From Anaerolineae bacterium (GTDB lineage: Bacteria; Chloroflexota; Anaerolineae; Aggregatilineales; Phototrophicaceae), in NCBI GenBank assembly GCA_022843745.1, contig JALHNB010000015.1, positions 62,001-126,000 of the forward strand: a DNA stretch of 64,000 nt. The letters run 5' to 3'. The notes under the pieces were generated by a model that saw only the letters and a program-made list of their open reading frames with translations, searched no databases and was not told where the DNA came from. The translations under genes and the position numbers were made by a program. This document shows positions 721 through 54,420 of this stretch, piece after piece; within the stretch, counting starts at the first letter, position 1; each line of letters begins with the position of its first letter.

Positions 721-835
721 TATCCCAGTTCCATTAAATTGAGGATTAAGATTGCGAGTTTATTTTACCCTAAACATCAAGAGTTTAAAATTATTACACA
801 AAAGGTTCCAAAACAATCAAATGAGGATTTATGAC

Positions 836-1783
836 ATGAAAAAAATACTGGTGGTTGGCGGGGTGTCGATTGATACGATTATTCATCTGGACAGGCTGCC
901 AGAAGGCGTGCCACAGACGCTTTTCGCGAAAGCCACGCATCAGGCGGTTGGCTCGACAGGCGCGGGGAAAGCGCTGAATCTCAACCGACTCGGATTCGAG
1001 GTGACACTGCACGCGATGATCGGCGATGATGCGCCGGGGAGGTTGATTCGCGAAAATTTTGAGCGCGAAAATCTGCGCTTCCTTTATGATGTCGATCCGA
1101 AAGGCACGGAGCAGCATGTGAACCTGATGGACGGGGAGGGCGGACGGATTTCGATTTACACGAACGCGGGAACTTTTGAGCCGGAAGTCGATCTGGTACG
1201 GCTGGAAAGTCTGATCGCGGAAACGGATATTCTGGTCGTCAATATCCTCAATTACTGCCGACAAATTCTGCCGCTGGCGAAACGACGCCACAAGGAAATC
1301 TGGTGCGATATTCACGATTATGACGGCAAAAATCCGTATCATCAGGATTTTATCGAGGCGGCGGATTACCTGTTCATGAGTGCCGACGCGATGCCGGATT
1401 ATCGCGATTTTATGCGGCGAATGATCGAGGCGGGCAAAAAACTCGTTGTCTGCACAAGGGGAAAGGAGGGGGCGGTATTAGCGACCCCTCCCCATTCGCA
1501 AGCTCATGGAGAGGGGAGCAATACGGCGTTCGAGCAATCACCCCGTAACAATTTTATCGAGATGGCTGCGATTCGGAGCTATCCGGTAGTAGATACGAAT
1601 GGGGCGGGGGACAGCTTTTTCGCGGGGTATCTGTATGGATACGAGCAGGGATATGCAGCGGAGAAATGTTCGCAACTGGCGACGATTGCGGGTGGGTTGT
1701 GCGTCTCGTCGCGCGAACTGGTGCATCCGGCAATGAGCACGGCGAAATTGGAGGCGGAATATCGTGTACATTATGAAGAGTAG
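836..1783 (+). CDS. PfkB-family carbohydrate kinase with an in-frame palindromic repeat
   Basis: This 315-residue protein belongs to the ribokinase/PfkB family, which phosphorylates sugars or nucleosides with ATP. The C-terminal signature VVDTNGAGDSFFAGY holds the catalytic Asp and anion hole, and the N-terminus (ILVVGGVSIDTII) matches the family. I chose the ATG at 836 because AGGA lies 8 bases upstream and the family homology starts there; in-frame starts at 752 and 821 add sequence unlike the family. Residues about 217-228 (TPPHSQAHGEGS) are encoded by a family A repeat identical in layout to intergenic copies, placed just before the conserved DTNGAGD block. The substrate cannot be told. 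Confidence 0.88.
   Translation: MKKILVVGGVSIDTIIHLDRLPEGVPQTLFAKATHQAVGSTGAGKALNLNRLGFEVTLHAMIGDDAPGRLIRENFERENLRFLYDVDPKGTEQHVNLMDGEGGRISIYTNAGTFEPEVDLVRLESLIAETDILVVNILNYCRQILPLAKRRHKEIWCDIHDYDGKNPYHQDFIEAADYLFMSADAMPDYRDFMRRMIEAGKKLVVCTRGKEGAVLATPPHSQAHGEGSNTAFEQSPRNNFIEMAAIRSYPVVDTNGAGDSFFAGYLYGYEQGYAAEKCSQLATIAGGLCVSSRELVHPAMSTAKLEAEYRVHYEE
1484..1518 (+). repeat. Family A palindromic repeat inside the PfkB gene
   Basis: The stretch begins ACCCCTCCCCATTCGC and ends ATGGAGAGGGGAG. It differs from the intergenic copy at 26976-27022 mainly by a shorter left part and one T fewer. The arms form an imperfect hairpin. It keeps the reading frame and adds about 12 residues to the kinase. Confidence 0.85.
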
Positions 1784-4618: not shown

Positions 4619-5845
4619 ATGATCTATAGCAAAACTCTCGGCATTTTCGGGCGTGTTCGACCCGTTTTTTATTGGCTCACAATTCTTGTTTTAATGGCCG
4701 CCATGCCAGCATTAGCGCAAGAGGATGACTGCCCGATCATCGTCCAGACGGCGTTGGCGGAGGCTGGCGACGTATGCAGCGACACAGCGCGTAACCAGAT
4801 TTGCTACGGGAATATTCAGCTTGAGGCGGTGGCGCGAGAAAGTGTGCCGGAACTCACGTTCAGCGAGCCGGGGGATATTATCAACGCGGGAGACGTGCAA
4901 TCGCTGCAACTCAGTCCTTTAGTCGATGACAACTGGGGAATCGCGCTGATGAAACTTCAGGCAAATCTGCCGAATACGCTGCCGGGACAGAATGTGACAT
5001 TCGTGCTGTTCGGCGATGTGGAAGTCACGAATGCGGACTCAGACACGAACGCGGAAGATACACCGCCGCTGCAAGCCTTTTATTTCAAAACAGGATTGAA
5101 CGATGCGCCGTGCGATGCCGCGCCGGACAGCGGACTCATGCTGCAAACGCCGGATGGTGTGGGCAAAGTCAATTTTAATGTCAACGAAGTTGAAATCACG
5201 CTTGGCTCGACAGCTTATCTGCAAGCGCAGCCGGAAGGTGATATGACGGTCAGCGTCCTCGAAGGCGAGGTCACGATTGCGGCGTTTGGCGTAACGGTGA
5301 CGATCCCGGCGGGAAGCAAAGCCACTGTGCCGATGAATGATCAAATGCAAGCATCCGGGCCGCCGGAAGATTCTGAGCCGTATGATCCGAGCGAACTGGC
5401 TGCGCTGCCGATTAGCCTGCTGGAACTACCCGTCACGATTGACCCGGAAGCCACGCCGGAAGCAACAGCCGAAGCAGGCGGCGCAATCCCGGAAGCGGGG
5501 CAGTGGGTGTGGACGACAGGGACAGCGACTGAGGAAAATTGCATGGCTGGTCTGGGCGAAATGATCGCTACACAGTTCACGCCACGCGCACCGTTCGATC
5601 TCCCCGGCGGCGAATTTGACCTGTCGACGCTGCTCACGGCGGCTTATGAAGGCCGATCACAGGCAGGGGCGGTTTACAGCGAACCAGAGCCGGGATTACA
5701 GGCTGTCGATTTTCCGAGTCCAAACGGCAACGGGCGTTATGAAGTCCGCGTGATTTCATCGACGCGGCTGGAAGGGTTGATGATTATGAGCGGCGAGGGC
5801 TGCGTCGTGACGATTCCATTTGAGGTGACGCGGGAAGGGGAGTAA
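4619..5845 (+). CDS. Secreted FecR-like protein, tandem paralogue 1
   Basis: The 408-residue protein has a signal peptide ending near PALAQ-EDDC and is therefore exported. The ATG at 4619 has AAGGA 8 bases upstream. A FecR-like beta segment is seen in the middle (VSVLEGEVTIAAFGVTV, then IPAGSKATVPM), a fold usually found in periplasmic or surface sensors and in cell-wall associated proteins. It is followed by a short ATPEATAEA linker and a diverged C-terminal beta domain. The N-terminal two thirds are nearly identical to the next gene, including long runs of DNA identity. No TonB receptor or sigma factor is nearby, so classic FecR signalling is unlikely. Confidence 0.72.
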   Translation: MIYSKTLGIFGRVRPVFYWLTILVLMAAMPALAQEDDCPIIVQTALAEAGDVCSDTARNQICYGNIQLEAVARESVPELTFSEPGDIINAGDVQSLQLSPLVDDNWGIALMKLQANLPNTLPGQNVTFVLFGDVEVTNADSDTNAEDTPPLQAFYFKTGLNDAPCDAAPDSGLMLQTPDGVGKVNFNVNEVEITLGSTAYLQAQPEGDMTVSVLEGEVTIAAFGVTVTIPAGSKATVPMNDQMQASGPPEDSEPYDPSELAALPISLLELPVTIDPEATPEATAEAGGAIPEAGQWVWTTGTATEENCMAGLGEMIATQFTPRAPFDLPGGEFDLSTLLTAAYEGRSQAGAVYSEPEPGLQAVDFPSPNGNGRYEVRVISSTRLEGLMIMSGEGCVVTIPFEVTREGE

Positions 5846-5999: not shown

Positions 6000-7187
6000 A
6001 TGAAGACACTCATTTTCACTATCGCATTACTTTTGATCGTCAGTGGATCCACATTGGCGCAAGAGGATGACTGTCCGACCATTGTGCGAACGGCGCTGGA
6101 CGAAACGGAAAATGTTTGCAGCGAGACAGCGCGTAACCAGATTTGCTATGGGAATATTCAGCTTGAGGCGATTGCGCGAGAAAATGTGCCACCACTCACG
6201 TTTAGCCAACCGGGAGACATTATCAACGCCGGGGATGTGCAATCGCTGCAACTCAGTCCGTTAGTCGATGACAACTGGGGAATCGCGCTGATGAAACTTC
6301 AGGCGAATCTGCCGAATACGCTGCCGGGGCAGAATGTGCTGTTCGTGCTGTTCGGCGATGTGGAAGTCACGAATGCGAACGCAGACACAGAAGATACAAC
6401 AGACTCAGAAGAAGTGCCGCCGTTACAGGCGTTTTATTTCAAGACCGGGCTGAATGATGCGCCGTGTGATGCCGCGCCGGACAGCGGACTGATGCTGCAA
6501 ACGCCGGAGGGTGTGGGCGAGATTAATTTTAACGTCAACGAAGTCGAAATCACGCTTGGCTCGACGGCGTATCTGCAAGCGCAGCCGGAAGGGGATATGA
6601 CGGTCAGCGTCCTCGAAGGTGAAGTCACGATTGCGGCGTTCGGCGTGACGGTGACGATCCCGGCGGGAAGCAGCGCGACTGTGCCGATGAACGACCAGAT
6701 GCAGGCATCCGGGCCGCCAGAAGATTCTGAGCCATATGATCCGAGCGACCTGGCTGCACTGCCGGTTGGCCTGCTGGAAATACCGATCACGATTGAGGCG
6801 ACTGCCGAAGCAGGTGGGGGTTTAGTGCCAGCGGCGGGTACATGGACGTGGGTTAATGGGGTGTCAACAGAATCAGGTTGCCCAGCGGGGATGGGGACGC
6901 TCATGTCTGCGCGCTTCACACCTGCGCCCTTCACGCTCTCAGGCGGCGAGTTCGGCATCGAAATACTCATGACGACGGCCTTTCCAATGGGCGGCAGCCC
7001 ACCCTCAAATGCTATATCTACTGAGCCAGAGCCGGGCCACTATATTTTCGAGTTTAACGACGGATCGGGCGATGCGCGTTATGAAGTGCGTGTTATTTCG
7101 CCGGATCAAATCCAAGGGGAGATGGGTTACAGCAGTCAAGGCTGCGCGATTACGATCCCGTTTGAGGTGACACGGGCCGGAAGCTAA
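6000..7187 (+). CDS. Secreted FecR-like protein, tandem paralogue 2
   Basis: This 395-residue product is the sister of the preceding gene. It has a signal peptide ending STLAQ-EDDC, the same Cys-containing N-terminal region, the same VSVLEGEVTIAAFG FecR-like segment and IPAGSSATVPM. The C-terminal 110 residues (from about the VPAAGTWTWVNG segment) align only loosely with paralogue 1. The ATG at 6000 has AAAGGG 6 bases upstream; the open frame back to 5901 only crosses the repeat. The duplication looks recent in the shared part. Function is unknown. Confidence 0.72.
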   Translation: MKTLIFTIALLLIVSGSTLAQEDDCPTIVRTALDETENVCSETARNQICYGNIQLEAIARENVPPLTFSQPGDIINAGDVQSLQLSPLVDDNWGIALMKLQANLPNTLPGQNVLFVLFGDVEVTNANADTEDTTDSEEVPPLQAFYFKTGLNDAPCDAAPDSGLMLQTPEGVGEINFNVNEVEITLGSTAYLQAQPEGDMTVSVLEGEVTIAAFGVTVTIPAGSSATVPMNDQMQASGPPEDSEPYDPSDLAALPVGLLEIPITIEATAEAGGGLVPAAGTWTWVNGVSTESGCPAGMGTLMSARFTPAPFTLSGGEFGIEILMTTAFPMGGSPPSNAISTEPEPGHYIFEFNDGSGDARYEVRVISPDQIQGEMGYSSQGCAITIPFEVTRAGS

Positions 7188-8853: not shown

Positions 8854-8869
8854 GGGAGGGCGGATTTTA

Positions 8870-8948
8870 CCCCTCCCCCACCCCCTTTCAAAGGTAGGTA
8901 TTTCATGCAACCCTCACCCCCGACCCCTCTCCCACAAGGGGCGAGGGG
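8870..8948 (+). repeat. Two family A modules in tandem
   Basis: An incomplete left-arm module (CCCCTCCCCCACCCCCTTTC), the linker GGTAGGTATTTCATGCAA, then a full CCTCACCCCCGACCCCTCTC...GGGGCGAGGGG hairpin. The same linker recurs at 30600-30686 and, altered, at 37688-37751. Confidence 0.8.
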
Positions 8949-9058
8949 CTTTAAAGGCCTTTTTCAAACCTTTATGAACCTTATGAGAGATCGCAAAAGG
9001 GTTAGAAAAAAGTTACCACACTATCGTGTGGAGGTATCACCGCTGTGCCCCCTACGAA
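8949..9058 (+). repeat. Compound repeat C, copy 2
   Basis: Matches 4498-4604 at AGATCGCAAAAGGGTTAG, AAAAGTTACC, CTATCGTGTGGAGGTATCAC and CCCCTACG. It sits between the TIM-barrel gene and the convergent HD-domain gene and encodes nothing visible. Confidence 0.55.
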
Positions 9059-13189: not shown

Positions 13190-13466
13190 TTTTCCTCCTA
13201 GCCATAAGGTGTATGTGCGGAATCTTATGAAAAGTAGACAACTGATACTTCGTTATAACCGCTAAATTTTTATGCCATTCTTTGTAAATATATGCCAATA
13301 AGCCGACATAAAGGGGGTCATTAGTGAGGTTATCGGGAATAAATCAGTAAAATGGACAAATAAAATCAACATTCTGTCTCAATAAAATATTAGCTAAAGA
13401 AGCTAAATTTATATCGCTTTTTATTGGCGTTTATCGCTATCTTTGGGTTGTGAGGCAAAATTATCG
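13190..13466. promoter_or_regulatory. AT-rich region upstream of amtB
   Basis: About 280 bases of AT-rich sequence without an ORF separate amtB from the terminator of the P-domain gene. This must hold the amtB promoter on the minus strand. I see no clear sigma-54 or NtrC-type site and no certain -35/-10 pair. Confidence 0.4.
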
Positions 13467-13482
13467 ACAATTGTGAATCAAA

Positions 13483-13504
13483 AAAGCCGTCGCGAAACGG
13501 CTTT
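13483..13504 (-). terminator. Rho-independent terminator of the P-domain protein gene
   Basis: Stem AAAGCCGT/ACGGCTTT with a 6-base loop. On the minus strand it is followed by TTTTTTGATTC. It ends the gene at 13600. The 38 bases at 13467-13504 recur exactly at 15102-15139. Confidence 0.85.
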
Positions 13505-15000: not shown

Positions 15001-15117
15001 AATGAGCAAATTCGACCAGAAATTATTATCACGCCAGTTTAAGAACATCCATATTATTCGCGCTTATAACAATCCATTGATCGTAAAGGCTAAAATTGTC
15101 AACAATTGTGAATCAAA

Positions 15118-15139
15118 AAAGCCGTCGCGAAACGGCTTT
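15118..15139 (-). terminator. Rho-independent terminator of the PhyH gene
   Basis: Stem AAAGCCGT/ACGGCTTT, loop CGCGAA, and a T-run on the minus strand. It is identical to the terminator at 13483-13504, including 16 upstream bases, so it was copied as a unit. Confidence 0.82.
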
Positions 15140-20266: not shown

Positions 20267-21169
20267 ATGCGAAACCGATATGCGCTGATTTCGGACATAC
20301 ATGGCAATACGATTGCGCTGGACGCTGTTCTGAATGCGGTGAAAGAGCAGGTCGATGGGTATTGGATACTCGGCGATCTGTGCGCCATTGGCTATGATCC
20401 GGTGGGGGTACTTGAACGCCTGGACGCTTTACCCAACGCGCTTTTTGTTCGCGGGAATGCAGATCGCTATCTGGTAACGGGTGAGCGTCCTAATCCGACA
20501 TTTGATGCGGCGGCGAAAAATCCGGCGCTCATCCCGACGTTGGCGGAAGTCGCGGGCAATTTCGCCTGGACGCAGGGGTATCTGGAAGCGCGTGGCTGGC
20601 TCGATTGGCTGAAAAAAATGCCGCTGGAGCAACGCCTGACCCTGCCGGATGGAACGCGAGTCCTGCTGGTTCACGCCGCGCCGGGGACTGATGATGGGCA
20701 TGGGTTGAATCTCGCGCTGACCGACGAGGAGTTGCAGGCGGAAATTGACGGGTGTGAGGCGGATTTGGTGTGCGTCGGGCATTTTCACATGCCGATGGAT
20801 CGAAAATTGACCCCCTCACCCCCAGCCACTCTCCCGCAAGGGGCGAGGGGAGAAAATACAGAGCGCAAGGGAGGATTCACAAATAATGTTATCCGAGTCA
20901 TTAATCCGGGGAGTGTGAGCAATCCGGTGGGGCAGGACTTGCGGGCAGCGTATGCGATTTTGACGGCTGATGAGCGCGGCTATAAAGTTGAATATTATCG
21001 TGTTGAGTATGATCGGCAGGCGGCGATTGAAGCGACACAGCGGTGCAGCAATCCTGGCAGGGATTTTATGGTGAGGGCGCTGCGGGGCGAAATTCGCGCA
21101 TCGTGGATGGCACGGTGGGATGGGGTGACGCATCTGCCGAGGGTCAGCGAGAAATTCAAATCGGATTGA
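20267..21169 (+). CDS. Calcineurin-like metallophosphoesterase with in-frame palindromic insert
   Basis: The 300-residue enzyme has the metallophosphoesterase blocks in order: ALISDIHGNTIAL (D-x-H), LGDLCAIGYDP (GD), RGNADRYL (GN), LLVHAAPGTDD (H) and CVGHFHMPMDR (GHxH). The family hydrolyses phosphodiesters or phosphomonoesters with two metal ions. Residues about 182-195 (LTPSPPATLPQGARG) are encoded by a family A repeat, placed after the GHFH loop and before VINPGSVSNPVG, where the family normally has a short beta-hairpin. The insert is expected on the surface. No promoter or operon partner is evident. A partial second copy lies at 22459-22563. Confidence 0.88.
   Translation: MRNRYALISDIHGNTIALDAVLNAVKEQVDGYWILGDLCAIGYDPVGVLERLDALPNALFVRGNADRYLVTGERPNPTFDAAAKNPALIPTLAEVAGNFAWTQGYLEARGWLDWLKKMPLEQRLTLPDGTRVLLVHAAPGTDDGHGLNLALTDEELQAEIDGCEADLVCVGHFHMPMDRKLTPSPPATLPQGARGENTERKGGFTNNVIRVINPGSVSNPVGQDLRAAYAILTADERGYKVEYYRVEYDRQAAIEATQRCSNPGRDFMVRALRGEIRASWMARWDGVTHLPRVSEKFKSD
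20811..20852 (+). repeat. Family A repeat inside the metallophosphoesterase gene
   Basis: CCCCCTCACCCCCAGCCACTC then GCAAGGGGCGAGGGGAG, a clear copy of the CCTCACCCCC...GGGGCGAGGGG subtype seen at 8910-8948 and 11863-11900. Its length keeps the reading frame. A flanking stretch of about 13 more codons (20853-20890) also seems foreign. Confidence 0.85.
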
Positions 21170-29856: not shown

Positions 29857-30594
29857 TTGAAACTACGCGTGGCATTCGTATTGATTTTGAGTATCGTGAT
29901 CGTCGGTGGTGGACTCTGGATGGTCAACCAGAAGCCTGCTGAAGCGAGTACACGGATTGAGCTGCGTTCCGACCCCTATCCATTGGCAGTGGGCTGGATC
30001 ACGCTGGCTATCGCCGTCGTAGATGGTGCTGATAACCCGATTGATCATGCGCGGGTGTCGGTTTTGACCCAGATGATGCACCCCGGAATGCTGCCATTCA
30101 ACCAACAGGCTGTTCAGAACGCAAATGGTGATTATGAAGTCTCGATCAATTTGCCGATGGCCGGACAGTGGACGGTGGATGTCGCCGCCGAATTACCGGG
30201 TGAGCAAGACATTATTGAAGATCAATTTGAGGTTTACGCTTACCCCGTCCAGGTTAATTCCAGCAGTATGCTGACATCATTTCGGAGTATGAGCGAGATC
30301 GAGGCGTTAATTTCCGACCCGGCGAGCGAGCTGGCGATTGTCATTCCACAGGGTACGCAGGCGTTGATCCGCGCGGGACAGGCGGAAGATTTGATTCCAA
30401 CGGAGATTCGCTTGAACGTGAGTGGTCAGAACACGCTGGTGATCCAGAATAACGATATTGTCGATCATACGATTGGCCCATTTCTGGTGCGGTCAGGCGA
30501 GGTGGTGCGGCAGAAGTTCTCAAGCCCAAGTGTTTATCAGGGCGTTTGCAGCCTGAATGTGGCTGAAGCGATCAGCATTATTGTCGAGGCGTGA
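29857..30594 (+). CDS. FixH/cupredoxin-like exported protein (copper cluster)
   Basis: The 245-residue protein has an N-terminal membrane anchor or signal (LRVAFVLILSIVIVGGGLWMV). The next domain (RSDPYPLAVGWITLAIAVVDGADNPID, QMMHPGMLPFN, NLPMAGQWTVDVAAEL) resembles the FixH/YtkA-like fold linked to cytochrome oxidase assembly and copper transport. The last 90 residues form a cupredoxin-like strand set (DIVDHTIGPFLV, VYQGVCSLNVAEA) with a His and a Cys but no complete copper site. The start is TTG at 29857 with GGCGGGG upstream. It is followed by SCO1 and PCu(A)C genes. Confidence 0.72.
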   Translation: MKLRVAFVLILSIVIVGGGLWMVNQKPAEASTRIELRSDPYPLAVGWITLAIAVVDGADNPIDHARVSVLTQMMHPGMLPFNQQAVQNANGDYEVSINLPMAGQWTVDVAAELPGEQDIIEDQFEVYAYPVQVNSSSMLTSFRSMSEIEALISDPASELAIVIPQGTQALIRAGQAEDLIPTEIRLNVSGQNTLVIQNNDIVDHTIGPFLVRSGEVVRQKFSSPSVYQGVCSLNVAEAISIIVEA

Positions 30595-30599
30595 ATGAA

Positions 30600-30686
30600 C
30601 CCCTCCCCCAACCCCTTTTCAAGGGTAGGTATTTCATGCAACCTCACCCCCCAGCCCCTCCGCTACGCGACAAGGGGCGAGGGAAG
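30600..30686 (+). repeat. Two family A modules in tandem
   Basis: An incomplete left arm, the linker GGTAGGTATTTCATGCAA, then CCTCACCCCCCAGCCCCTC and GGGGCGAGGGAAG. It lies between the first two copper-cluster genes. Confidence 0.8.
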
Positions 30687-30749
30687 TAGAGAGCTACGCG
30701 ATTGGCGTGGTCGTGATTGTGGGAACATCTAAGGAAGCAAGGGTCTGAA

Positions 30750-32796: not shown

Positions 32797-33645
32797 ATGA
32801 AGAAAAAGGACAAATCTCGACACTTGGATTCTGAATCCGCGCCTGAAATCGCATCTGGCAGTCTGAGTAAAAAGTTTTATGAGAAGGAGCTGGAACGGCT
32901 GCAATTCGAGCTGGTCAAATTGCAGTATTGGGTGCAGCACAAAGGGTTGAAGATTGTCATTATTTTTGAAGGTCGTGATGCAGCAGGAAAAGGTGGGGTT
33001 ATCCAGCGCATCGTTGAACCACTGAATCCGCGTGGTGTGCGGCAGGTGGCGCTTGGCAAACCTTCGGATGTGGAACGCAGCCAATGGTATTTTCAGCGCT
33101 ACGTCGCCCATTTGCCCTCGGCGGGCGAAATCGTAATTTTTGACCGCAGTTGGTACAACCGGGCGGGAGTCGAGCGCGTGATGGGGTTTTGCACCGATCA
33201 CGAATATTGGGAATTTTTGCATTCCTGCCCAGAATTCGAGCGATTGTTGGTGCGGGCAGGGATAATTGTTGTCAAATATTATCTGTCGGTGAGCGATGCC
33301 GAGCAGGAGGAGCGCTTTCAGAGCCGCGCGAAAGACCCAACCCGCCGCTGGAAACTCAGCCCGATTGATCTGGAAACGCGTAATCGCTGGGTTGAATATT
33401 CCAAAGTGAAAGACCTGATGCTGGAGCATACCGACATCTCGGAAGCCCGCTGGTATCAGATTGAGTCCGATGAAAAGGCGCGGGCGCGTCTCAACTGCAT
33501 CCGCCATCTGCTGAGTATCATCCCGTATGAGGATGTTGTGCCAAAAGAGATCGAACTCCAGCCTCGACCACCGGCTGACAAGGATTATGTTCGTCCCCCA
33601 CGAGAACGCCATATCGTCGTCCCAGATTTCTACAAGACAGACTAG
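32797..33645 (+). CDS. ppk2: Polyphosphate kinase 2 (PPK2)
   Basis: A 282-residue enzyme that moves phosphate between polyphosphate and nucleoside diphosphates. Walker A (GRDAAGKGG) lies at residues 59-67 and Walker B is FDRSWYNRAGVERVMGF. The lid and other blocks (LSVSDAEQEERF, DPTRRWKLSPID, KARARLNC) are in order. GGGG lies upstream of the ATG. It overlaps the next gene tail to tail by four bases. Confidence 0.95.
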   Translation: MKKKDKSRHLDSESAPEIASGSLSKKFYEKELERLQFELVKLQYWVQHKGLKIVIIFEGRDAAGKGGVIQRIVEPLNPRGVRQVALGKPSDVERSQWYFQRYVAHLPSAGEIVIFDRSWYNRAGVERVMGFCTDHEYWEFLHSCPEFERLLVRAGIIVVKYYLSVSDAEQEERFQSRAKDPTRRWKLSPIDLETRNRWVEYSKVKDLMLEHTDISEARWYQIESDEKARARLNCIRHLLSIIPYEDVVPKEIELQPRPPADKDYVRPPRERHIVVPDFYKTD

Positions 33646-35276
33646 GGTATGTCCACGACAAAGCGTTCCGGTACGCTCCACGCGCCCCCGACGGCACGGA
33701 CGCGCCAATACCAGATGCCGATGCCGAGCGGACTATCAACCTCATGGGAAAGGCCGTTGACCGTGCGGGCATAATGACCAGGTGTGCCGAAGTTCGGGTC
33801 GGTGTCGATCTCGATTTCGTAATCCGCTACGCCGGAGATGCGATTCCAGGTGAGGGTAGGGGTGGATGTGATGAAGTAATTTCGGAAGGGCGCAGCACCC
33901 ACAGGTGATACAACAGGCGGAAACTGATTGTGAACAAAGATGTCCTCGCTACCATTCGTATCACCCGTCACCAGATTGCTAGCGGCTGATTCGAAAGCGA
34001 TAAACTGCCCATCTCCTGAGATGGAAGCAGAATAATTTATACTGTTCGCCTGCGCCCCCGCACTGCTGACCGAAATTCGCCTGGTCATATTGGTCTGTCG
34101 GTCATGTACGAGAATATCAGCAAATGCATTATTATCACCTGGCACCAGGTTCGTCGAAATTGATCTGAAAATGACATAGCGCCCATTTCCAGAGATCGAA
34201 GGCCAGGTATTGTTTCCGTTGCCTTGTGCGCCCGCGCTGGTGACAGAGACACGCTCAATTAACCCGGTTTGCCTATCGTATACAAAAATGTCGTCTCTGT
34301 TATTGGTATCGCCCGTTATCAGATTGCTGGCTGCTGATTCAAAGGCGATCAATTGCCCATCCCCTGAGATAGAAGGTAGGTGGCTCTCATTATTTCCTTG
34401 CACTCCTGTACTGCTGACCGAGATACGTTGAGTAACGCCTGTCTGCCGATCACGCACAAAAGTGTCGGTCATAGCGTTGGTATCGCCAGTCACCAAATTC
34501 GTAGCATCGGATTCAAAGGCCACGAAACGCCCATCTGATGAGATCGACGGTTCAACACTGCGGTCATTCCCCTGCACCTCGGCGCTATCGACTGAAATAA
34601 GCTCCGTATCACCCGTCTGCCGATCACGAACGAAAATATCGTAGCTCGCGTTCGTATCGCCAGCCACCAGATTGTCAGCCAGAGAATAGAAGGCTACATA
34701 GCGCCCATCAGCAGAAATTGATGGGCTATAGCTGCTTCCATTACCTTGCGCCTCGGCACTATTGAGCGAAACACGCTCGGTAGTGTCCGTTTGCCTGTCG
34801 CGCACAAAAATATCCCGGTTAGCGCCCGTATCCCCAGATACCAGATTGCTCGCCAGAGAGTAGAAGGCGACATAGCGCCCATCGGCAGAGATTGATGGCT
34901 GGTCGGATACGGCGTTTCCCTCGACACCCGAAGAACTGACTGAGACACGCTCAGTGATCCCGGTTTGCTGATCGTACACAAAAATATCCCTGTCATTGCC
35001 GATATCATCGGGTACTAAATTGGTGGAAAGCGACTGGAAGGCCACATAGCGTCCATCAGCGGAGATTGATGGCTCATGACTGGCATCATTACCCTGTTCG
35101 CCGCTGCCGTTGATGGAGACACGAGTGGTGATTCCCAGTGGAGTAGATTGAGTCAGAGGGCCGTCGCTGCCAGACTGATTCAGAATACGTTGATCAGCAA
35201 GAGTGATGGTCGGATAAAAAATGCTGCTTAATAACAAGAAGGCGCTTAAGAGTAGCAATATGGGTGGATTGCGCAT
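33642..35276 (-). CDS. Secreted seven-repeat beta-propeller protein
   Basis: The 544-residue product has a signal peptide (ILLLLSAFLLLSSIF). Seven repeats of about 57 residues follow, each with the PSISADGRYVAF and DIFVRDRQTG.T.R(V/I)S motifs of TolB/PD40-type blades. This fits a seven-bladed propeller. The last 95 residues, from APFRNYFITST, look like a fibronectin/Ig-like beta domain. I chose the ATG at 35276; the frame is open to 35324. It is probably a surface-exposed binding protein. The repeats are nearly identical at DNA level in places. Confidence 0.8.
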   Translation of the reverse strand: MRNPPILLLLSAFLLLSSIFYPTITLADQRILNQSGSDGPLTQSTPLGITTRVSINGSGEQGNDASHEPSISADGRYVAFQSLSTNLVPDDIGNDRDIFVYDQQTGITERVSVSSSGVEGNAVSDQPSISADGRYVAFYSLASNLVSGDTGANRDIFVRDRQTDTTERVSLNSAEAQGNGSSYSPSISADGRYVAFYSLADNLVAGDTNASYDIFVRDRQTGDTELISVDSAEVQGNDRSVEPSISSDGRFVAFESDATNLVTGDTNAMTDTFVRDRQTGVTQRISVSSTGVQGNNESHLPSISGDGQLIAFESAASNLITGDTNNRDDIFVYDRQTGLIERVSVTSAGAQGNGNNTWPSISGNGRYVIFRSISTNLVPGDNNAFADILVHDRQTNMTRRISVSSAGAQANSINYSASISGDGQFIAFESAASNLVTGDTNGSEDIFVHNQFPPVVSPVGAAPFRNYFITSTPTLTWNRISGVADYEIEIDTDPNFGTPGHYARTVNGLSHEVDSPLGIGIWYWRVRAVGGAWSVPERFVVDIP

Positions 35277-35404
35277 GAGCTTATCTCTCAAAATCTTTTT
35301 ATGCTCATTATAAATCAAAATCATTAAACAAAATCTTTCGCTCCCTGTCCTTTGTGCGCTATCATCGCAGCAATTCGACTCTCACTTAATCGAGGTACAA
35401 AACC

Positions 35405-54396: not shown

Positions 54397-54420
54397 GGGC
54401 GCAAGGCCTTGCGCCCCTAC
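54397..54420. repeat. Family B palindrome
   Basis: A perfect 20-bp palindrome (GGGCGCAAGG/CCTTGCGCCC) followed by CCTACAAA. It lies between the convergent VOC and cyclase genes. Confidence 0.8.

Follow-up and report, generated by a model that had tools for sequence, protein, structure and literature searches.

A metallophosphoesterase gene of this bacterium has very probably received, after the lineage split from the sampled relatives, a palindromic and G/C-rich element of the TM/BoxC/PIT type that is present in many copies; the core of the enzyme would have stayed in place and gained a loop, in a genome from which most insertions inside genes would have been purged. The host gene lies at positions 20267 to 21169 of the plus strand of the window (the whole stretch of 64,000 nucleotides analysed here) and encodes a protein of 300 residues, which passes the Pfam cut-offs for calcineurin-like metallophosphoesterases (PF12850, E 1.3e-15, 58.1 bits, cut-off 27; PF00149, E 1.5e-12, 48.8 bits, cut-off 21.5). 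Foldseek placed 3qfm (the Ap4A hydrolase SapH) and 3rqz (a Sphaerobacter phosphoesterase) at the top ranks for its model. Furthermore, residues D10, H12, D37, N64, H136, H172 and H174, which we take to be the metal ligands of the calcineurin-like fold, are common to this protein, to its 63% identical homolog from an Anaerolineae MAG (L003) and to a more distant one from a Desulfocapsa MAG (L004, 30% identity in the best segment).

The repeat core occupies positions 20812 to 20850 on the plus strand, where it reads CCCCTCACCCCCAGCCACTCTCCCGCAAGGGGCGAGGGG inside the open frame of the gene. As an earlier, preliminary description of this DNA had placed it, it lies between the GHFH motif (residues 171-174) and the NPGSVSNP segment, and it belongs to the CCTCACCCCC...GGGGCGAGGGG subtype; the same description had set it apart from a copy in a PfkB-family kinase gene, and this is right, the PfkB copy being of the CCCCTCCCCATTCGCAAGCTCATGGAGAGGGG subtype. 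Relative to L003 the net insert is 75 nt or 25 residues (residues 182-206, TPSPPATLPQGARGENTERKGGFTN, at about 20810 to 20884). Comparison with orthologues had been proposed as a check, and in that comparison the segment is absent from all 30 aligned homologs (L003 and 29 loci from relatives, the best loci of a longer match list), whose identities lie between about 29% and about 60% and which show a gap of 24-25 columns. Most of these 30 have a two-residue turn at the insert site (DG, NG, GT and similar), and the nearest ones, L003 and L006-L010, all have the short turn. The exception among the 31 fetched homologs is L004, which stands outside the alignment and carries a longer, unrelated segment between its GHSH and NCGS motifs. 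A longer and unrelated segment is seen at this site in the aligned sequence of 3rqz as well, so that length alone does not prove a recent insertion.

The last 34 nt of the insert (20851-20884, plus strand), past about AGAAAATA, contain no recognisable repeat. Their best local score against the other tails was 14, when shuffled tails gave a mean of 12.3 and a maximum of 15, and we therefore rejected the tail as a portion of a composite repeat; the insertion event was accordingly not a clean copy of the core. An AlphaFold2 model built on three sequences (pLDDT 64.6, pTM 0.69) predicts a coil with pLDDT below 50 at residues 185-206, between β-strands assigned by DSSP at residues 177-181 (20795-20809) and 209-213 (20891-20905). 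With its predicted coil joining two strands, this place resembles a permissive hairpin turn, in agreement with the hairpin that had been expected there and that would be a surface one. The RNA fold of the 101-nt region reached a z of only -1.62, and a search of Rfam at gathering thresholds returned zero matches within the window.

The repeat at 20812-20850 is not a chance resemblance. The genome of the window (G000) comprises 7.96 Mb in 117 contigs, and we sampled 1.47 Mb of it as 54 blocks, most of them picked for holding copies and a few as controls. This sample gave 278 raw matches, or 256 copies once overlaps were removed, and a third-order Markov sequence gave none; 31 matches in the reversed, uncomplemented sequence reflect some background of the loose search. 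A stricter pattern of 21 nt with up to two mismatches was found at 117 places in the whole genome vs one for the backwards pattern. With coding regions called by a home-made hexamer gene finder (84.4% of the sampled DNA), 45 of the 256 copies lie inside 28 predicted genes, three across a gene edge and 208 between genes. This corresponds to 0.216 in-gene copies per intergenic copy, when 1.81 would be expected from uniform insertion with a frame filter only, so that genes are avoided and in-gene copies amount to about 12% of the frame-filtered uniform expectation. A chimeric bin was considered as the cause of the clustered distribution of the copies and rejected, the tetranucleotide profiles of repeat-rich and repeat-poor parts correlating at 0.84-0.97. 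Several subtypes of the element occur in this genome. With regard to the terminal inverted repeats and target-site duplication of a MITE, the flanks of the copies have a CAA...AAA tendency only, and some of 17 aligned copies form part of a longer composite that has an imperfect inverted repeat, CAAGGGTAGG / CCTACCCCTGAAAG. Such CAAGGGTAGG...CCTACCCCTGAAAG composites were seen among the copies at window positions 8863-8954 and 30593-30690 and at loci L043-L058, often with a copy of another subtype at the 3' end.

Judged by its sequence, the "family A" of the preliminary description, which had not recognised it as such, is a known triplex motif of the TM/BoxC/PIT type. The reverse complement of the window core is identical at 33 of 36 positions to TM no. 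3 of Escherichia coli and can be read as a degenerate class II triplex motif of the E. coli type. TM elements, earlier named BoxC and PIT, are described as intrastrand triplex motifs of class II that are rich in G and C (Holder et al. 2015, PMC4666352), and the available text of that work reports for the 23 TMs of E. coli MG1655 that they are always intergenic, without strand bias and unlinked to mobile elements, their sites being more variable across E. coli strains than control sites. We applied an adapted version of the ITxF rule for class II motifs (a pyrimidine stem, a purine stem and a third purine block, with a stem of at least 7, at most one mismatch and a loop1 of up to 8 nt), which picks out 156 of the 256 copies and 32 of the 45 in-gene copies, when the opposite strand of the 256 gives two and 256 shuffled copies give none. 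With a 6-nt stem and one mismatch at a relaxed setting, the window copy is just short of this stem length. In addition, 129 of the 256 copies reach 85% against four of the 23 published TMs, shuffled copies staying at or below 82%. L046, a copy of the same subtype as that of the window, matches 5368 of 5426 E. coli genomes at a median of 12 places when E is permissively limited to 10; in its eight best rows identity is 82-88% and E 1e-4 to 6e-2, and the matched DNA of these eight carries no annotation. The elements of this genome appear to share with the E. coli TMs the three-block anatomy, and they share a near-identical sequence (33 of 36 positions for the window copy) and the many copies per genome. 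However, the E. coli TMs are described as always intergenic and free of strand bias in the text available (PMC4666352), whereas here 45 of 256 copies are in predicted genes and orientation tracks GC skew.

The tested copies inside genes keep the reading frame. The preliminary description had proposed to look across the genome at copies inside open reading frames, and in a test in which the best coding frame was picked independently on each side of a copy, the frame was kept in all 38 distinct copies with coding entering from both sides (39 calls within 1.47 Mb, in 27 host genes), and shifted in none. One of them, C51:13897, was called on both strands and its coding strand is therefore uncertain. 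In five SHIFT calls and one additional SAME call the upstream frame is closed by a stop before it reaches the element, and these six consequently look like gene ends. Three copies were too close to a block edge for the test, and seven of the 45 in-gene copies, for which the coding score did not pass the threshold on each of the two sides, are outside the 38. With a higher threshold, in the first 0.8 Mb, the frame was kept in 23 of 23. In a power control, which simulates fresh insertions and from which old, decayed frame-broken genes would escape, the call on the strand of the gene was right for 377 of 400 insertions in frame and, for the two kinds of shifted insertion, in 381 and 375 of 400, the rest being uncalled; simulated frame-breaking copies are thus detected as well as in-frame ones. 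Twelve of the 38 copies are not independent, since all of them are in one polyketide synthase (PKS) cluster.

Similar results were obtained in two relatives. In G012 (67 copies, 0.34 Mb) 14 distinct copies (17 calls), four of which form one tandem array, are in frame with both sides open, and the element is followed by a stop in two additional SAME calls. Of the 85 copies in 0.36 Mb of G019, two are in frame, and three SHIFT calls have an adjacent stop (two after the element and one before). No frame shift with both sides open was found among the copies examined in G012 or G019. At L151:938-1110 of G012, four head-to-tail copies with a spacing of 44-45 nt were all called in frame.

The encoded peptide itself does not seem to be what is tolerated, as the preliminary description had proposed. 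The 45 in-gene copies are distributed over phases 0, 1 and 2 as 7, 11 and 13 on the strand of the gene and as 3, 7 and 4 on the opposite strand, and with every phase used in either orientation there is no preference for one peptide; genes are also avoided overall (0.216 vs 1.81). Selection explains the keeping of the frame better than a special peptide does. Most insertions inside genes would thus be purged across the genome, and a minority of the in-frame ones would survive, several of them in turns and inter-domain linkers, the survivors being presumably the outcome of purifying selection. In the case of the phosphoesterase, a TM-type element with a net contribution of 75 nt would have entered the gene after the split from the sampled relatives and landed at a two-residue turn between two strands, beside the metal-binding GHFH motif and with this motif intact. 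As the insert consists of whole codons, has no stop in the phase used, is located at a turn and leaves GHFH in place, the core of the enzyme is probably retained and extended by a flexible loop of 25 residues, which we infer to be exposed and harmless. Of the ongoing mobility suggested earlier, these data support a gain after the sampled relatives had split off, but neither its recency nor its mechanism.

Two other histories of this gene have to be considered. The segment could be an old loop of the phosphoesterase subfamily that was lost elsewhere and that resembles the repeat by composition. The distant 3rqz and L004, with their unrelated longer segments at the insert site, would fit such an origin; however, the short turn in 30 of 30 aligned homologs, over the whole range of identities, and the identity of the DNA with TM no. 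3 of E. coli (33 of 36 positions) make it extremely improbable. It is also very unlikely, if slightly less so, that the gene is a pseudogene in decay and tolerates insertions as neutral changes, because its open reading frame is intact, the putative metal ligands are kept when compared to L003 and L004, the coding score is positive on either side of the insert and the frame is kept in all 38 tested copies.

Several other genes have received the element. The PfkB-family kinase gene of the window (821 to 1783, plus strand; PF00294, E 2.9e-25) contains its copy at 1485 to 1516 on the same strand, located by the repeat search and in frame by the frame test; here the insert has 18-19 residues and is absent in three of three aligned homologs. 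In RecD2 the insert has about 26 residues and is absent in two of three aligned homologs, the third having an unrelated longer linker; 19 of 20 relatives searched match this RecD2, and 16 of the 19 matches are split at the insert. The net lengths thus differ (25, 18-19 and about 26 residues), which argues against one fixed unit length as the cause. A Pfam scan covered 26 of the 28 host genes, leaving out two PKS genes that span sampled stretches, and three of the 26 were without match and two had only matches below the cut-off. Besides PfkB and RecD2, the hosts include a P450, an APH-type kinase, an epimerase, an ABC transporter, an FtsK-like ATPase, a glycosyltransferase, a Proton_antipo_M protein, a LuxR-type regulator, a PKD-domain protein, PKS modules, a beta-lactamase-fold protein, an AlkZ-like glycosylase, a rhamnosidase, an RNase H/Cas4-like protein, a 2-oxoacid dehydrogenase acyltransferase (E2) and an FGAM-synthase-like protein. 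The modular PKS cluster at about 8.5-37 kb of contig C57 of G000 (L112, L075 and L113) holds 12 of the 38 frame-tested copies, and the three KS-AT linkers found by motif in C57:15001-35000 all carry a copy, each of them different.

Palindromes that are read in frame inside genes are already known from other systems. RPEs are palindromes found in frame in unrelated protein genes of Rickettsia, and are predicted to be compatible with the structure of the host protein in the available part of that report (PMC10969869). In-frame insertion into protein genes is shared with the element described here, but RPEs are of about 150 bp and belong to Rickettsia (PMC10969869), when our element is of the TM type with 75 nt net. 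GTAG/CGTC REPs are short palindromes that, as summarised in PMC3733652, are mostly intergenic, with a minority in open reading frames that include DNA repair genes, and in-frame palindromes within tnpAREP genes are also mentioned in the accessible text of PMC6006769. DNA repair genes are among the hosts here too (RecD2 and the AlkZ-like glycosylase), but REPs have a GTAG/GTGG or CGTC tag, which is rare here, and no linked REP-type transposase was found. Within the literature searched, which consisted of open-licence papers, neither TM elements in frame nor a TM orientation bias were found to be described, so that in this literature the in-frame location of the TM class and its orientation are new.

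We have also shown that the orientation of the element follows GC skew. With the copies masked, orientation agrees with the sign of local GC skew in 196 of 256 copies, in 167 of 200 where |skew| is above 0.03 and in 107 of 114 where it is above 0.06 (sign-flip test over 37 contigs, p 0.00025). Local gene direction alone fits 157 of 256, and 63 of the 87 copies for which it conflicts with skew go with skew. In-gene copies track skew less (30 of 45), and the exceptions are contigs C50 (9 to 3 against), C11 (3 to 1 against) and C57 (7 to 6). In the relatives the bias is at most weak (40/67 in G012 and 49/85 in G019; 7/12 and 8/12, respectively, at high skew). As a rule the G-rich strand is the leading strand, and the bias would fit copies that insert into one strand of the replication fork or survive on it, so that the spread or the loss of copies may be coupled to the fork. 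The bias belongs to this genome, since it is at most weak in G012 and G019 and no strand bias is reported for E. coli in the text available (PMC4666352).

How this orientation arises can be explained in more than one way. Survival could be responsible if the triplex-forming G-rich strand stalls replication when it is on the lagging-strand template and the copy is then deleted, which we consider possible, if tentative. By the usual rule, when the C-rich-first strand is on the G-skewed strand, the leading-strand template is the one that bears the class II triplex strand, and in G000 the C-rich-first strand does sit on the G-skewed strand; the variation of TM sites beyond that of control sites between E. 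coli strains (PMC4666352) points in the same direction. However, the weak bias at most in G012 and G019 and its reported absence from E. coli TMs speak against it. On the other hand, the element could be a canonical REP moved by a RAYT/Y1 transposase on single-stranded DNA. The folding of 97% of the copies with at least 8 pairs and the tracking of GC skew, as for the insertion into the lagging-strand template of the IS608 kind outlined in PMC6006769, would agree with this. Nevertheless, it is unlikely: the tag was looked for near the hairpin foot of the 256 copies, and GTAG was found in one and GTGG in two on each strand, and CGTC in seven and six, so the copies do not carry the GT[AG]G tag of a canonical REP. 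The strong Y1_Tnp match of G000, on contig C101, is an IS200/IS605 transposase (TnpA) surrounded by inverted repeats unlike the element, and the sole copy found on C101 is about 1.6 kb from this gene; the second match is weak (28.9 bits, in a 1157-residue frame on C1). Furthermore, copy number and Y1 genes do not match by inspection, as G019 has 28 copies and no Y1 match and G027 has no copies and 12 matches, although G013, with 63 copies, has one good match. A RAYT gene flanked by the repeat was not found in the draft assembly of 117 contigs, which may miss genes. A RAYT/Y1 transposase is therefore not supported as the mobiliser by the repeats of the C101 IS200/IS605 or by the tables of the relatives.

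The preferred reading, a TM-type element gained by the phosphoesterase gene, has several implications. TM/BoxC/PIT elements have so far been described in E. coli as intergenic, with function and mobility undescribed, and finding them in frame in enzymes whose near homologs are without them argues for gain and gives bounded insertion sites. Their orientation relative to replication can be tested for what it indicates about their spread or loss, and a second sequence class joins the short list of palindromes turned into protein sequence. A bolder proposal, which we regard as speculative and rather unlikely as a whole, is that TM elements are true mobile DNA with spread or survival specific to one replication strand, that they are a steady source of in-frame surface loops and linkers here and in relatives, and that they entered homologous PKS linkers independently.

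Other repeats were also observed in this DNA. A second palindrome family, GTAGGGGCGCA...TGCGCCC, which starts with a REP-like GTAG, occurs at window position 54397 (minus strand) and at 104 other places in 1.47 Mb; 11 of these 105 are inside predicted genes, and the reversed-sequence control gave none. Positions 34067-35074 contain six copies of a 138-nt unit with a spacing of 174 nt, within a predicted minus-strand open reading frame (33642-35324), and positions 4710-5348 and 6052-6702 are adjacent duplicated segments with 87-88% identity. Finally, a 48-nt repeat with 96% identity is present at 13457-13504 and 15092-15139, between predicted genes and with a terminator-like palindrome at its end.
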